In this document: positions 1,364 to 43,137 of the stretch, one piece after another | How the letters are laid out: every line of letters begins with the position of its first letter | Position numbering within the stretch: the first letter of the stretch is position 1 | Assembly (NCBI GenBank): GCA_947568835.1 | Contig: OX387605.1 | Location: forward strand, 13,210,418-13,274,417 | Reading direction: 5' to 3' | Length of the DNA stretch: 64,000 bases | Origin: Protonemura montana | Lineage: Eukaryota > Arthropoda > Insecta > Plecoptera > Nemouridae | Translations under genes and position numbers: made by a program | Notes under the pieces: model-generated | The model's database searches: none | The model's input: only the letters and a program-made list of their open reading frames with translations | What the model was told of the DNA's origin: nothing

Positions 1364-4300
1364 TTAGATAGTGTCTGCCAGGCACATGATAGTGAGGTTG
1401 TTTCGAATGTCGTCTGCCTGATGGGTTTCGGTTGTTAGCAGAGACACTGTTTTGGTGGCAGTAACCATCAGGAAGCCGTTGGCGGAGAAATATCCCGCGA
1501 CGTTTGGCGTTTCAAGCCAGACAAACGGCGCAACGTTGTCTGTAGACAAAGTGATGTAGAAACGCCAGCTGTCGCCTTCGGGGAATGGACCGGTCACGTC
1601 GGTCACCTGAACAGACAGAGAATCCCCTTCAGGCTTATTTCTTTTATTAGGAAACAAAATAAAATGCCCTTGGTAAATCAGGCATAGGTACTTAGTGTAA
1701 AAATACTTCCCCTGGTCAATGACAGACATTTGTTGTTCTATATTAGAATTTAGGACACACAAGGCATGGTGTTAATAAGTTTCCTTTGAACTATAGAAGA
1801 ACTAAACTAATAAATCAATCACACAAAATGTTTTGCTTAAGATCTAGTAAATTTTACGAAAAAAAATCGAAAGAATTTGTGAGGTCAGCTACAAACTTAT
1901 GCTGCATGCATATTCAAGTACGGCTACAGTAAGTGTTTACAATCCAATCATAAACATCACAAAATAATTGACACTGAAATTCCCTTTAACCAAAAAACAA
2001 ACCGTTATCACAGCTTTCTGCATCCCGACTGCAGCGTGCAGTGGCTCCAGCAGCAGGAAATTGTCTGCGGCGACCTTGGCGCCTACGGAATCCGTGAGAG
2101 TCAGGTACACAAAGCACGTGTTTCGTGCTTCGGTCCCCTGGCCGCAGCCAGCCGTGGAGAGGAGGCTTGATGCCGTCAGATCCCAAGCAACCCCAGCTGA
2201 TGCACCAGTCTGCAATCACCAGGTCACGTGTGAGGTTGTTGATGTCAAAACGCAAGTAATATTTGTTCATTTCTTTTGAGTTGATGTTGCAGGGATTGTC
2301 GTAAAAACGTTGCACCAGTCGGTGCATCAAATTCAGGCCTAGAAGACACTACCCCTTGGGGTATAAAGGCAATGCCCTAGTTTTAACTTAAAAATCAATT
2401 TAATGTACAAAAATTGAATTTTTTCAACTCAATAATTTGAAACCAGAGAGTCAAAAAGGCTGGTTGTTGCACAGATTCCTTGTCGATTCCCTGAAAGAAA
2501 GTATTCAAAATTTGAAAATCATTTTAAGCACCCTAATGTGCAGGTCTACTCACAAGGTCGAGGTTCTGGACCATTGTGTCAGCTGGGACGAGACTTGACC
2601 ACTTGAAGACGCTGAGCGTGAGAGTGAGGTCAGGTAGCGTTTCGAGAGCGTCGGAAACGAGATAGACTTCTATGCGGCCGTCGGCCGTGGCATGTGCTGT
2701 CACGAGTGTGTTGGCAAAGAAGTCTCGTGCAAAGTAGTGCAGCATTTTCCAGCGGCCCCCAAACTCTATTGATGCCCATGAAGGACCCTGTTGCCAATCA
2801 AGAAATTTAGCCAGAACACAAGAATTAAGATGGCTTACCTGGATTTTCTGCCATGTTTGTTTATTCATTAAGTACAATTTTTAGATATCTGATTACAAAG
2901 AGTGATCAAGTCCATCAATTAACAACTGAATTTTATAAATGATTCTTCGAGTTTCAAGAACAAAGATAGCAGTCACAGCTGTCTAGGCTGAGGCATATAG
3001 TAATGTGGACAAGGCATTTCTTGGAGGAAAAATTTCAGATCTAAATGGCATGCATATATATATCCCCAAACATAAACAGTAAATACGTCCTGCCATTTGT
3101 GTACCTGCCAGATGTCATTGAGCTGCCAGTAGAGTGCGCCCATTGTTTGGCCCTCCCCATTAGGCACCAGCAAGTGGCGGCGGGTTCGGTACGTTTCCGA
3201 CTCCACTTTGGTAGACATTGCCTGGTTGATCTGTAGGAGACATAAAAGCGATCAAGCATTCCCTAGATCCAGTGATCTTGACATTTTGGGGCAACAAATT
3301 AACGCACTCAGCAGGGTGGATAGTAAAATGGTATATTTTAGTTTTTATAAATCGACACTTTTCCGGGAACTTATCAAGCTTTAAGGAATGGAATTAATGG
3401 ACAGCTATCCAAATACATGGTTGATCATTAAGATCTAGCATACTAATCTATATTATAAAATACAATTTCTTATAAAAGTAGCAATAATATTTTGGTACGA
3501 TTATGGTATTGGCTATAATAGTTAATTATGATGTACATTGTGCATTCACAATGTAACTTGACCCAGAAATTTATCAACAATGCTAACTAACAGAGAATTA
3601 ATTAAACATTTTTCACTGGCAAGAAAAAAAAAGAAAAAAAAGAAATCAGCAAAATTATTTACTGGATGTTTAGGATAGACTCTGGAAAGACTTAACTTTA
3701 AACTCGGCTGAGCTACTTGCTAATTTTTTAAGAATTCTTTTAGTGGAGATTGGGTCGTGCTTTAAAAACATTCTTGACAAGTTATTTCCATCTATTTCAG
3801 ATCAGTTTTACTTTTCATGATTTACTAAGTGCACAAACATCCAATCCATGCAAATTTCGCACATAAAATAGTTCATGCTGAAAACAAGTACAAGCCTCAG
3901 ACTCTCCAGACGTAACATAAGTCGTCTTTGACTTTTTCAGTAAAATTACTTCCATAAGAATCAATTTATGTTTTTTTTACCTGGCTGAGATAGACATATG
4001 TGGGAAAGCCAGCCACCTCCTGGTAGTCAGTTCTTAGAGTCATGTGCGCTTTGATCTGCGCCGCAATCTCCTCGTACCCTGCAGGGTGGTGTTGGCGGCG
4101 GCGCGAAAATTCGGTGCCTAGCGCCAAGTCATCTGGCTCAGACACAGCACGCAATGCTGTCATCGACGGTAGAGACTGGAAGCCATACTCCGAGACGAAA
4201 CGGCCGCGCGGGTAGATGTTCGGATTCCAGCCGTCCATTATGTAATTGTAATAGTGTACTGGTGAACAATAAAACAAAGTGTAAGCTTGTTGCAATGAAT

Positions 4301-7300
4301 TGTACTAATTTTCTAAGTAATCTGATATTGAACCCTATTTGTGTGCTTGTCTACAAAACACCACAATAACCATCATTCATACCCTCTGGCAAACTCTTGA
4401 CTAAAATAGTGGTTATACATTAAACCAATAATTGCCTAAAGCAGTTTAACAATAGTTTTAGCAACTATGAAAAAATTACGAAGAAGGCTCGATTGTTACT
4501 GCTTGGAACAACCTGCTTCCAAAAATGTTATTCAATTGGAATCAGTTCTTAAGTTTTATAATAGTGCACAAATGCAAGCAAATAATTGTGATTTTAAAAA
4601 TACTTTACAATGGAACTAACTCTTCTCACATGAGACACAACTCCTTATTTTTTTATGAAAGTGCCTATGTTACTTTCAGTACTGATCTACTTTTATAATA
4701 TCAATCACAATGAAGTACTTTGGCAAAGAAACACACTGAATAGATACATATGGGTTAATGAAATTGGAAAATATTTGTAAATTGTACAGGCTCAAATTTG
4801 TTAAAATACTTACATAGTTGAACATTTTTTATTTTGGCCAAAATTAAATTTAAAACAACAACAAGAATTCAAGACAAGAAGTTCAAGAACAAGAATTCGA
4901 CACAGTAGCTATTGATGATAGGGTGCATAATCTCGTTGAAGACTTACTGTCCCCGTAGAGTGGGCTGTATGGGTTGAGAGCGATGTACCCATCCAGCTCT
5001 GACTGGAGCCCATTTGAGGGACTGGACACGATGAAGCTGCGGCTGGGATCCTCCATCAATGCCACTGGTCGTATCGTGTTCACATAGAGCTTGATATAGT
5101 CCTCACGATACAAGGAAAAGTCAGATGCAGTCCCATACCTATCGGCCAGGATATATATAGGTAGTAAAGCCACAGGCTGTCCAATCCTGCTTCAAGTTGA
5201 ATAAATAAACACACAATAATGCCTTTACAAACAAACAATTTTTGAAGAATTTTTAAGCCTTGCATCAAATGATTTAAAGTTTAAACTGAAATCACCTGTT
5301 TGAGCATAAGCTTCACAAAGCTGGTAATTGTCGTCCATGCACAGTATAATAAAATACGGTTTTTAAAGTTTGGCAGATTCATCCAAATTGCAACGTTCGG
5401 AGGCATTTGGTTTCGGTCTTACCAGCTGTCTCTGAGCGCAGCCTCGTTCTCGTTGTTCCCTGCCCACAATGCTATGGACGGGTGGTGCTGCAGACGCCGC
5501 ACTTGCTGCGTCACCTCTGTGCTTACTGAAGCCAGGAATGCTGGGGTTGCTGGGTACATGCTGCACGCAAACATCAGGTCCTGCCAGATCAGCAGGCCCA
5601 TCTCGTCCGCAAGCTGGACGATGCAAAACTGGCGTAAATGGACTTAAAAGATGGACTATGAATCAAAGGAAGAATGGCTGAAAGGTGCTTTGGATGCTGG
5701 CTTGTTTAAACTTTGAGGCATAAAAGCTAGTTGCATTTTCTACTTTATTTGATATTTTGCAGGCATTTGCAAGATTATTTTTTTCTAAAGATGCACTGGC
5801 TGCTAGACTTGTAAAAACCAGGGAATTTAGGAGACTGCATTCAGGGTTGTTGGAGGTTGTACATTTGGGGTTCAGGTTCAGCTGCAAAATTGTAAATACT
5901 TCAGCTACAACCACTGTTGTAACTAACCCTGGACACGGATAATCCGTTTACACAAATATTGGTGATGGACTACAGAAAAATATATAGACCTGATAGAAAA
6001 GATCAGACTCGTAGAGACCTCCGCCCCAAACGCGAAGCATGTTCATGTTGGCGACTCGGGCGGCATTAAGCAGCCGGCGAACAGGTAAGTCTTCGTACGA
6101 GCGTTCGGGTAACACATGGGCAGGGATCCAGTTGGAACCCTTGGCAAACACGGGCACGCCGTTCACCACAAAGTAGAAGCTCAGTCCTGTACACAGCATC
6201 AAAAGGAAGCTATAAATAATTACAATTCTTAATAATTTTTCAATTTAATGGTCGTATTTATTTGTGGAGTCAGTGGAGTAAAATTTTATTTTGGAAGGCT
6301 AGCAAATTATGCTTTGTTTTATGAAATCAAAATACAAACAAATTATTAATTTCTAGAGCTGTGTTGCAAGAAACTTGAAGGAGCAATCTGGCAACAGGTG
6401 CTGAACAGTCTGCACCCAAATGATGAAATGAATCCAACGCGCAGATCATTATCACCTGTATCTGGCGAGGAAGTTACTTGTTCCTGCACCAACTGCAGCG
6501 TGCGGAAGCCAATCCTAATGACGCGCTCGCTTGAAACCTGGTCGGTTCCAGAGAACCGTACGGTAATGTTGTACAGGGGCTGGCTTCCGTACCCATTCGG
6601 CCACCATAGCTGCACTTGGTCCTGCCAGGAAGAGAAGTTAAAAGGTCACTTGACGCATTCAGAGCTTTTTCCAGTTGTTTAAATTGGTGCTACTAGCGGC
6701 ATAGGCCGAGAACATTTTTAGTTATTATTATTATTATTTGTGGTGTTTAACGACGCACTGTTTTGACAACTGGCCCTGCGGCACTGGTCTAATGGCGTCG
6801 GTGAATGAGTGGATGAGGATGAACCTAACCTAGCCTAGAAGGGAGGAGGGGAAACCCGGTGCTGGCACGTAGCCTACTCCTGTCGAAGAGCACCAAGGGG
6901 ACCACCGGCTTCACATCCCTTCCGAAGGACGGTACAACTCGAACAGCAGGATTCCTCCACAAATCCATGCTGTCGAGAGGTTGATAAGCAAGGGGAATGA
7001 AGTTGCTGTACTAACTTTCATCCCTCCAACCTCTCTCCCGAACAGAACTGGTCATGTGTATAATGGTCACCCATTCAATACCTGACTCAGCGCAGTGTTG
7101 CTTAACTTCGGTGATCTAACGAGAACCGGTGTTTCCAACACGCCAAACCGTTCGGTCGAGAACATTTTTAGGTAGACAGTGGAATAGCTACCTACTAAGG
7201 TAGTCTGTTTGTAAAATGCTTTATTTTAATAAAGTTCACTTTTGCAGATATGTACATCCATATACAACTAATCAACATGCACCGAGACCAGACATGATTA

Positions 7301-10300
7301 CTGATAGTGATTACACACCGATACTGATACTGACAGACTGGTACTGACAGACTGATTACTGATTAGACAAGGTTAGTAGAAGAAGTCCGAGTACTATGCT
7401 GAGAGAAAAACGTATCCCATTGGCTTTGATGTGGCTGAGACTTCATCTAATTGCCTTGTTTTTAGTACCAAACATCAAGAGCTATCAGCAGAGTTTGAGG
7501 TAGTCTTTCCGGCAAAAAAATTGAAGTGACAAAAATTGTGAGCTGGACTGGGAGCCAAAACCTCAGTACCTTTGGCACCGTAAGGGTGATGTTGGCCTGG
7601 AACTCTCCAGCAGGTGCTGGGATGATGTCGATTTCGATCGCTGAAGCTATGGTGACATCGCCGTTGACGGCGATCTCAGCTATTAGGTCCCCATGGACTG
7701 CCACCTCGTTGAGTCCCACTTCGCCAAAGACGTTCAGCAGAATTTCCCACTCGCTGGCTGATGACTCTCGCAGCTCTGACGTCACGTCACGCAATATTGC
7801 CGAGTCAAATGCCACCAACTCAACGCTTTGCCTGTGGACCGAAAGCCTAACTTATGGCTAATTCATAATTTTTTTGTAATGATTTTCATCCCTAGAATAC
7901 TATTACTTTGCTTTATGTCTGGTGTAAATCCTATGCAGTGAGCATTGAAATTTGGTCTAATTGTTGGAATGTAAAAAATAGCCAAAAAGGGTCTAAAGAT
8001 TGAGTCATTCAAGTGTCTCAGCACAGATGTTAATAAATCAGCAAAATTGATTAACCAAAAACTATTATTTCGACACAGACGGCAGTCGCCTAGTGATGAA
8101 GTCACCATCATTTTGCTTGCTAATCAAATAAGTTGAGTTATTTCCTTCATTACTTGCATTTGAGCTGGTTTACACTCAATAAATTGTCATTAATGTTGAC
8201 CCAAGAGAAAGATGTGAATGTTGATATTTTGAGTAGTAATTATGTAATTGTAGAGATTTGTTAAAGACAACCGCAAGTGCCATCGGCCACCACAGTTACC
8301 AAGTTTTGGAGGCTTGTTTGCTTAGTAGAACGATGATTAACTATAAGCCAATAGGGTTTAATTCTTCCACTTATTAGAGTGGATTTTGAATTGTTGTCTT
8401 AAGGCTAAGGCAACTGTCCTGAACCTGTCTGCAGCAGCATAGCACAAACAAAACCTGGTATTAGGCTACTTGCCAGAGGCCTACAGAAGGAAAGGCTGGG
8501 CCCCAATCCCAGGAGAAGGATGCCTGCATCTTTCGCAAGTGGTTGACGTGGCATTCGCCCTGGTACTCGGCAGGCACGCACAGTGGAGGCACAACATGTG
8601 CGGACGACACTTGCTCGTTGAAACGCTCTTCCGCTGCCAAAATCGGCGACCGGAACCGCAGAGAGATGGTGTTGGTTCCTGCCTGCCACCAATTCACTTG
8701 GTAGAAATCAAACCAGGGCTTCTAGGCTCGAAATATTATATTTATGGTTATTTTCGTTGTCTACTTAAATGTATCAAGAAGGGGCAAGTGTGCTTTTTTG
8801 CTACCGTATCAGAACTTTTGAAATTCATGAGTTATTAGTGGGGGTTCAACGAAGCACTGATTTAACAACGGGCCTAGTGGCACAGGTTTAATGGCATCAG
8901 TGAATGAGAGGATGCTGATGAACCTAGCCCAGCCTTGGAGGGAAGAGGAGAAACTCCGTCAAAGAGCCCCACAGGTACCACCAGTTTTACGTCCGTTTAG
9001 AAGGACTTTTCTACCCAAACAAGAAAAACAAAATTTCTCCAAAACTCCATGCTGTCAAAAGGTTGATAAGCTGAAGTTGCTGCACTATTGTCATGGAGCG
9101 GACAGGTACTTTTTAGAATCAATAACCCTTTTCCAAATTCTTTACGCTTTGACAAGGGATGATGCTTGCTTTTCACACAGTCTTGGACAATTAGTCTCAA
9201 AGGCCATCCCGTCGGTCATTGCCCGGGCGCTTTAGAAATACATTCACTTATCAATCACACCTGCATTTTGGTATTTCAACTTGCACCCTCCCACCAAGTG
9301 TATCTTGAGTTAGCAATGTGAACCCCGATTTGAGGGCACAAAACATTGTCCAGCTAAAGCAAAAGACACTCTCTGCTCATCCTCGCTCTAGGACGGACGT
9401 GTCCTGATCTTCTCGAAAATGTAAGTCTTTTTACTCACTTGGTGTAGTTTTAGGATTGTGTCATTAAATAAATATCTCAGTTCACCAAATCATTTTTTAT
9501 CACTTATAGACTTTTCACAAAGTCGCCCACGAGCCTTCCGCCGATCATGTCTACCGACTTCTAAATTATCCCTTCAGGAAACAGGGTCCAGATCCCTTAA
9601 CCTCTGGTGGTGGCAGCATGGAACCGCTACCCGGTCCACAACATTTAGGTGGCCGCGATCCACAACACTATCTTCTCTCCAACGTCTCTCCTAAACTGTA
9701 CTGGCCATGCACATAATGGTCACCCATCCAATACATGACACAGCAGAGTGCTTAACTTAGATGATCTCACGAGAACAGGTGTCTCCAAAACGCCAAACCA
9801 TTTGGCATTGAAGTTCATATGATCCACTTTCCAAGCTAGACAGAAGTCAACAATTTCTTGTTGGAACTATCATCAATATTTTTTTTCTTACTGTGAGGTG
9901 TTCCTTCACTGAGAAACGGTGGCGGAGGAACATGTTGTCACACAATCCCACTTGGATGCCATTGACGGTAACATCGGCAACAGTGTCAACACCGAGAAGA
10001 ACCAGGAAGATGTTCCCCTTGGATACGACTTGGTCATCAACTGAAAGGCAGGGCAGCAAGAGATTTACATGGCATATCAAACTTTATAACCAACAAGAAA
10101 TTCTATAAACTGAGGCCAACAAATTTGAAATAGCAACAGTGCGTTGCTATTTTCATAAATTATCACACACATTTTTTTGTTTCCTTACCTTCAAAAGTTC
10201 TCGTATATGTCCAGTCATCCCGTGACACCCAACGGTAATCGAGATCATTGTTGCGATAGAAAATGTCTTTGGTCAGGACATTGGCAGCCAAGAGGTCGGT

Positions 10301-42234: not shown

Positions 42235-42305
42235 ATTGTCGGCAATTGAATATTTTATGCTGTCTTGCTAATACAACCAATTCCCCTCAATTCAATCCAG
42301 AGCAT

Positions 42306-42737
42306 TATTTATTTTATGGTGTTTAACTACGCACTGTTTTGACATTTGGTCATGCGGCACTGGTCTAATGGCGTCAGTGAATGAGTGGATAATGATGATG
42401 AACCTAACCTAGCCTAGAAGGTAGGAGGGGAAACCCGGTGCCGGCACGTAGTCTACTCCTGACAAACAGGACCAAGGGGACCACCGGCTTCTTCCGTCCC
42501 TTCCGTAGGATGGTACAACTCAAACAGCAGAATTCCTCCACAAATCCATGCTGTCGAGAGGTTGATAAGCAAGGCGAGTGAAGTTGCTGTACTAACTTTC
42601 ATCCCTCCAACCTCTCTCCCAAACAGAACTGGTCATGTGTATGATGGTCACCAATCCAATACCTGACTCAGCTCAGTGTTGCTTAACTTTGGTGATCTAT
42701 CGAGAACCGGTTTTTCCAACACGCCAAACCGTTCGGT
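42306..42737 (-). mobile_element. 5S rRNA-derived SINE, full-length copy downstream of SEL1L
   Basis: Highly similar along its whole length to the 6722-7156 element and in the same orientation. The 5S-like head is at the 42.7-kb end, and the tail ends in ...TTAAACACCA-like sequence followed by AT-rich repeats. It is bounded by a perfect 12-base target duplication, aatccagagcat (42294-42305 and 42738-42749). Confidence 0.88.
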
Positions 42738-43004
42738 AATCCAGAGCATGTATCCCTGTGCACAACATACTATAACAGTTGAAAAAAAAAAAAAAATCTT
42801 TCTGTGCCATTACCAATTTGAAAACCCCTTGTTAATTGCTGTGAATTATTAAAAGAGTTAGCAGATTTTGAAGCATAGGGATTTTTCAGATGAAACAAAC
42901 TAACCCTGTGGTGCTAGTGAGTATACATGGTAGACTTCGGTGAGTACATGTAATAAACGTTCAAGAACTTTTACTCCACAAGTATGTAGGAACGTAAATA
43001 AGCT

Positions 43005-43137
43005 ACGAGAAGCGCTAACTGATGCCATTTGACTAAGTGTCACAGGGGCCATTGCTAAATAAAATATGTTGTTCAATAAAAAGTTTTAAGGCCCATTGTC
43101 AAAACAGTGCGTCGTTAAACCCCCCGAATCAATCAAT
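43005..43137 (+). mobile_element. 5'-truncated SINE tail with internal insertion
   Basis: The 3' part of the same SINE in the opposite orientation. Recognisable pieces are gatgccatt...gtgtcaca-ggggcc, then an extra ~45 bases, then attgtcaaaacagtgcgtcg and ttaaac. The end is an (AATC)n repeat instead of (AAT)n. The 5S head is missing. Confidence 0.68.

Follow-up and report, generated by a model that had tools for sequence, protein, structure and literature searches.

Several mobile elements are known that carry a promoter derived from 5S rRNA. HaSE3, PxSE4 and PxSE5, 5S-derived SINEs of moths, are described in the available parts of PMC3272025 and PMC8010984 as dispersed elements that start with a 5S head containing the boxes A, IE and C. 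As further characters, target site duplications (TSDs) for part of the copies, short tails of trinucleotide or other type and a proposed partner LINE are given there, and the family reported here shares these traits, its partner LINE likewise being no more than a proposal. The same parts of PMC3272025 and PMC8010984 list promoter regions of PxSE4 and PxSE5 that are ~63% identical to silkworm 5S, as well as 4,415 and 1,952 copies, and assume that a 5S promoter, owing to its dependence on upstream signals, has little or no activity once it is retroposed. The SINE3 elements of zebrafish and red flour beetle (SINE3-1_TC), as far as these papers mention them, have the same 5S-derived promoter and SINE architecture. 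The LTR elements Cassandra and Ajax likewise use a 5S-derived promoter, which lies in the LTRs according to the available part of PMC10886601, whereas our copies have the 5S head first, an (AAT)n end and duplications of variable length. Finally, SVA is, in the part of PMC13174262 at hand, a further non-autonomous mobile element, one that contains a variable tandem repeat in its interior.

Here, we report on a SINE located in the window, i.e., the whole stretch of 64,000 nucleotides that was analysed. In all probability, it is a young member of a SINE3-type (5S rRNA-derived SINE) family that exists in one-module and many-module forms, the tandem forms being insertable as a whole. The window copy itself carries one module and belongs to the youngest group seen. 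The window holds the following features, with consensus positions referring to the 447-nt family consensus:

6707..6721: target site duplication CGAGAACATTTTTAG on the 3' side of the element, exact in 15 of 15 bases
6722..7156, minus strand: full-length single-module SINE, 435 nt
6722..6738, minus strand: (AAT)n tail
6736..6808, minus strand: 3' tail region, in which a stem (CGACGC...GCGTCG) is predicted ahead of GTTAAACACCACA
6745..6758, minus strand: tail 14-mer GTGCGTCGTTAAAC, which also occurs at non-SINE sites
6809..7011, minus strand: SINE body (approximately consensus 146-360), without Rfam match at gathering
7012..7108, minus strand: stretch repeated as a module in other copies, single here (consensus 49-145), with AAGTTA at both ends
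7036..7156, minus strand: 5S rRNA-derived head, according to Rfam, the alignment to the genome's own 5S and the fold as a 5S three-way junction
7059..7108, minus strand: internal promoter region with box A, IE and box C (consensus 49-98), from the alignment to the own 5S gene
7157..7171: target site duplication CGAGAACATTTTTAG on the 5' side of the element, exact in 15 of 15 bases
8832..9087, minus strand: SINE body and tail, 67% identical, 579 bp from the head at 9667-9805
9667..9805, minus strand: head of an old, interrupted SINE copy, 80% identical
42304..42737, minus strand: second, older full-length single-module copy, 6.5% from the consensus
43090..43129, plus strand: fragment of a further copy's tail, with AATC repeats after it

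The perfect 15-base duplication around 6722-7156, the 5S-like start on the minus strand and the (AAT)n tail had all been part of the original prediction. The duplication is indeed exact at 6707-6721 and 7157-7171, with correct coordinates, and CGAGAACATTTTTAG is unique to these two sites within the whole window on both strands. The tail reads GTGCGTCGTTAAACACCACA(AAT)n, as claimed, and the start matches the full Rfam 5S model with 64.4 bits. Compared to the consensus, the window SINE lacks 12 nt at approximately consensus 337-348. The exact limits of boxes A, IE and C in this copy are presumed by us, and the box positions were assigned via the alignment to the genome's 5S gene. For the names of the 5S promoter boxes, we follow the usage in the available parts of PMC8010984 and PMC10886601.

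The older copy at 42304-42737 has a 5S head at 42618-42736 (Rfam, 40.0 bits), and a 12-bp duplication, AATCCAGAGCAT, was read by eye at 42294-42305 and 42738-42749. The two fragments at 8832-9087 and 9667-9805 probably belong to one old, split copy. Rfam matches at gathering are restricted to the two SINE heads (7036-7156 and 42618-42736) in this window, with no 7SL match among them. A tRNA-derived head was ruled out, as ARAGORN lists no tRNA gene in the window, and a lone 5S pseudogene is ruled out by the body, tail and TSDs that are common to the family copies. The window SINE is located ~5 kb from a beta-mannosidase-type exon (Ig_mannosidase, 1367-1771, minus strand).

A DNA search in the 258.5-Mb genome shows a dispersed multicopy family with TSDs of variable length, as in SINE3. 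The best 40 of 3,001 candidates are near full length with 95-100% identity; the window copy is one of them and the other 39 are its best matches, so that the set is picked by likeness to the window copy. Exact TSDs of at least 9 bp (median 12) directly at the element ends were found in 34 of the 40 copies, one of which (L039) is ambiguous as it sits in tandem repeats, while only 0.1% of 7,791 shuffled pairings reach this length. Divergence from the consensus over the non-tail part is 0.0-1.95% in these best 40 copies, two of them being at 0.0%. This is in good agreement with the suggestion of a recently active SINE3-type family. The 40 copies occur as 435- and 447-nt forms, 12 nt apart, and thus have the shortness of SINE3 elements; multi-module forms are longer, with arrays of up to ~3 kb. 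All 40 are single-module copies, with L050 adjoining part of another copy. Older members are also present: 16 sites found with the exact tail pattern include copies with 78-93% identity to the consensus, many of which have AATC instead of AAT tails. Exact k-mer matches, which are lower bounds for the copy number, amount to 7,704 for a body 15-mer (reversed control 1), 5,384 for a tail 15-mer (non-SINE sites included; reversed control 0) and 2,164 for a head 17-mer (some within a tandem array; reversed control 0). Thus, the family is far from the handful of copies that would have spoken against it: it counts at least 7,704 exact body 15-mers, with the above TSDs in most of its best copies.

In other copies, the stretch of consensus 49-145 is repeated. 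As the module starts and ends in AAGTTA (49-54 and 140-145), each extra unit adds 91 bp and, with it, boxes A, IE and C. The 5S internal promoter therefore serves as the 91-bp unit of a VNTR in this family. Genome-wide, the 17-mer of the tandem junction has 17,962 exact matches vs 5,258 for the single-form 17-mer, with reversed controls of 0, which corresponds to ~4.4 modules per single-form junction by exact counts. The first 100 junctions listed, all within C1:1-2.3 Mb, form 28 arrays of 2 to ~35 units. A body 15-mer lies downstream of 22 of these arrays and no exact one downstream of the other 6; conversely, 22 of the 43 bodies in this region have a tandem junction upstream. Array loci are C1:990210-993303, C1:62183-63926, C1:267175-268177 (L173), L172, L174, L123, L164-L167 and L175-L181, and the long arrays seen have ~13, 20 and 35 units. 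In a comparison of 30 complete modules taken from eight loci, identity is highest in box A (0.996, vs 0.955-0.965 in the other parts). Two further repeat types were noticed, a second kind of array made up of consensus 1-93 with a period of 92 (L084:34-301, L089:512-1057 and C1:1225175-1225559) and a 15-bp micro-repeat of the box C region (approximately consensus 88-108) at L180:48-159, ahead of a SINE copy.

We know of no tandem promoter modules in the SINE3 elements of zebrafish or red flour beetle. Likewise, no description of a SINE with tandem 5S promoter modules was found in the accessible portions of the open-licence PMC literature. Compared to PxSE4 and PxSE5, which we know by description only, the present family differs in the tandem promoter modules, found in about half of the bodies in C1:1-2.3 Mb, and in a head that is identical to the genome's own 5S at 92 of 119 positions and folds as 5S.

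Of 15 tandem copies examined, L173, L176 and L180 are without a recognisable tail, which leaves 12 with both ends readable. L172 has a complete head, two modules and an exact 14-bp TSD. L174 comprises seven complete modules and part of an eighth, has its 5' end inside a module, and is also flanked by an exact 14-bp TSD. These two cases imply that tandem forms can move. L179 (complete head, two modules) has a 12-bp TSD with one mismatch. For L177, again with complete head and two modules, the duplication of 10 bp with one mismatch is weak, as 2 of 156 mismatched pairings of tandem copies reach 10 bp; none of these pairings exceeds 10 bp or contains an exact match of at least 9 bp. A TSD is absent from the other eight readable copies (L088, L123, L164, L165, L166, L167, L178 and L181), of which L166 and L167 are apparently the same locus in duplicate; L086 and L175 are outside this tally. 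The tandem copies examined have bodies with 82-96% identity to the consensus, and recent activity is thus established for single-module forms only. As mobile elements with an internal VNTR, L172 and L174 resemble SVA. The VNTR of SVA, however, is GC-rich and accompanied by Alu-like and LTR-derived parts in the available part of PMC13174262, whereas the present unit is the 5S promoter itself. Moreover, the present head is 5S and not Alu-like (7SL-derived), and we do not class the family as SVA.

These observations have to be weighed against two other views of the modules. The repeats could be a satellite that has grown in place, by unequal exchange or replication slippage, in single-module insertions and has no part in mobility. 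The long arrays of ~13, 20 and 35 units, the eight out of 12 readable tandem copies without target duplication and the six out of 28 arrays without an exact body 15-mer downstream are what such a satellite would leave behind. Module identity is also slightly higher within arrays than between them (0.960 vs 0.947), although this gap is too slight to decide for or against growth in place. What such a satellite explains poorly are the exact 14-bp TSDs around the whole units L174 and L172, the 12-bp TSD (one mismatch) of the two-module L179 and the recurrence of the same junction in 22 of the 43 dispersed bodies of C1:1-2.3 Mb, and we regard it as rather unlikely. At the other extreme, the family may be an ordinary new SINE3 family, with tandem forms as rare oddities. 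The window copy and its 39 best matches, all single-module, fit this view. It is nevertheless most improbable, as the exact 17-mer of the tandem junction outnumbers that of the single-form junction 3.4-fold, unless the assembly has wrongly expanded arrays, and as 22 of 43 bodies in C1:1-2.3 Mb are tandem. We therefore retain a SINE3-type family with insertable one- and many-module forms as the best explanation, and the 5S-derived 5' head with boxes A, IE and C places it among the SINE3 elements.

The head of the window SINE comprises its first 121 nt and is the same as the consensus head. It covers positions 1-120 of the 120 positions of the Rfam model 5S_rRNA (E 3.1e-11; gathering score 38), and 92 positions are identical to the genome's own 5S gene of 119 nt. 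The local alignment between SINE head and own 5S gene scores 114, and the best of 2000 dinucleotide shuffles reaches 51.5; the predicted relationship to the species' 5S rRNA thus clearly exceeds shuffled sequence. A 5S family search of the same genome gave 47 scored matches with a best score of 117.5 bits. Thirty of these genes were read, of which 28 are identical and two have a one-base difference. In Rfam, the own 5S gene scores 116.7 vs 64.4 for SINE copy L044, which equals the consensus outside the tail. The consensus head alone is predicted to fold as a 5S three-way junction (-43.3 kcal/mol, z -3.15), with equal stability in 3 of 200 shuffles, while the stability of the whole 447-nt consensus is unremarkable (z -0.84). 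The consensus contains one run of four T, at 268.

The covariance-model alignments contain 33 ungapped 5S pairs, and 30 of these remain canonical in the SINE head, despite 22 paired positions changed relative to the gene. When 22 changes are placed at random, 18.8 canonical pairs remain on average and 30 were never reached in 20,000 trials, a comparison in which the alignment leans towards structure, the random model ignores that the promoter part is constrained for other reasons, and the paired changes may be older than the SINE. Helix I, aligned one position shifted, has six changes and all eight pairs intact (P 0.0025). When 2000 random mutants with an equal number of changes were folded, at least eight helix I pairs were present in 6.4% of the minimum-energy structures, and 2.8% of the mutants equalled the SINE head in stability. 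Judging from these predicted folds, the SINE head retains the shape of 5S rRNA.

To look for a partner LINE, the best 150 of 1,781 candidates from a reverse transcriptase family search of the genome were scored, and the downstream flanks of 10 and then 12 more LINEs were read, several of the 12 repeating earlier groups. The SINE tail 14-mer, within 2 changes, occurs in none of the first 10 flanks, and none of the further 12 has GTTAAAC at its end, the flank of L146 falling short of the 3' end. The ends of three LINE groups (L120-L122) consist of a GGCRC/GYGCC stem, one of the motifs GTTAAAC, GTTAAGC and TATAAAC, a CCC and, last, a tetranucleotide repeat, and thereby resemble the SINE's stem, GTTAAACACCACA and microsatellite. 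RNase H was found in both of the two groups checked among these three.

Two questions of origin follow from these data, one concerning the head and one the tail. The 5S-like fold may not be under selection on the SINE RNA at all, but inherited from a divergent functional 5S gene whose paired changes predate the SINE. Helix I of 5S differs among lineages, copies of a single age cannot tell the two histories apart, and the covariance-model alignment is biased towards structure, all of which counts in favour of this possibility. Against it, the 30 5S genes read of the 47 scored represent three sequences, none of which has the helix I of the SINE. We give such an inherited fold a little less than an even chance. 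Regarding the tail, our best guess, and a tentative one, is an I-superfamily LINE (EN, RT, RNase H) of this genome. Apart from the SINE-like ends of L120-L122, this is suggested by the L120 end, which aligns to consensus 411-432 with a score equalled by only 6 of 1000 shuffles, and by the AATC tails of many older SINE copies. The matches of L121 and L122 to the SINE tail, on the other hand, are equalled by 610 and 78 of 1000 shuffles, respectively, and another LINE group (L123, L149) has a score of 27, equalled by 0 of 1000 shuffles, over an A/T-rich stretch. It also speaks against the I-superfamily that, where an I-LINE-like stretch precedes the tail (11 sites), 10 sites carry further SINE similarity and one is too short to call, and that tblastn of these 11 sites to LINE ORF ends gave no match.

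The tail 14-mer GTGCGTCGTTAAAC is not confined to the SINE. In a context that excludes the two upstream SINE letters, it has 234 sites in the genome (reversed control 0). We sampled 40 of 100 listed sites (L094-L113 and L124-L143). Twelve of them show SINE similarity beyond the motif, in some cases a weak one (L101, L102, L133), or are part of a minisatellite, and four of the other 28 were judged SINE-like tails (L105, L111, L113, L141), which leaves 24. These non-SINE sites prefer GA before and A after the motif, with C excluded at one place by the pattern, and have CpG-rich flanks (observed/expected 1.10 vs 0.85 in the whole window). Among 17 short motif words tested in the flanks, GCGTCG stands out (17 vs 5.2, 0 of 200 shuffles); a few words overlapping it are weaker and most of the remaining ones show no enrichment. 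Six longer loci, picked as genic-looking, include four with a likely splice acceptor 15-26 nt downstream of the motif and a coding-like exon, and these four are the only clear splice-acceptor cases among 26 sites. A reading of the non-SINE 14-mer as a promoter element, based on the GC- and CpG-rich flanks, was dropped in view of these acceptors in 4 of 6 loci. L110 (C4:25588524-25589300) is a minisatellite with a unit of ~56 bp that contains GTGCGTCGTTAAAC.

Some observations concern the genome's own 5S genes. In L012-L038, within the first ~100 kb of C11, 5S genes occur every ~9.5 kb in both orientations, together with TTAGG repeats, and a histone 3' stem-loop lies beside the 5S genes in two of four loci searched. 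The start of C11 is thus a linked 5S-histone array with telomere-type repeats. Runs of (TTAGG)n occur in the genome, one of 1305 bp at most 9 kb from the start of contig C15, and suggest an arthropod host. A universal COI primer pattern, with up to 3 mismatches allowed, gave no match. Many of the best reverse transcriptase matches crowd at C11:54367-932285 and C16:29486730-29528256, where 5S genes are located as well, which would fit a preference of a LINE group for such regions.

As for the mechanism, RNA polymerase III would transcribe the SINE from the 5S internal promoter in the head. The reverse transcriptase of a LINE would recognise the 3' stem, GTTAAAC and the microsatellite tail, and the SINE RNA would be copied at the nicked target. 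Extra modules may arise most simply by slippage or template switching at AAGTTA. Multi-module forms can be reverse transcribed and inserted whole, as the two cases with exact 14-bp TSDs show, and arrays likely grow further in place, a point that the module identities do not decide. Going beyond this, one may speculate that the SINE made its own pol III promoter a mobile tandem repeat, via AAGTTA slippage during reverse transcription and reinsertion of multi-module RNAs, whose repeats would compensate for the upstream sequences missing from a retroposed 5S promoter. The head would have been kept 5S-shaped for a role at the RNA level, e.g., binding of a 5S-binding protein and travel to the ribosomes where the LINE protein is made. 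We consider this scenario doubtful.

From a biological point of view, the family is distinguished by a multiplied 5S promoter module in forms able to move, combined with a 5S-shaped head. Single and multiplied modules stand side by side in one genome and would allow a direct test of promoter number against SINE transcription and spread. With them, nature offers a gradation of 5S-type internal promoters, from a single one up to ~35 copies, in a SINE whose head, by its predicted fold, may still act as a 5S-like RNA.
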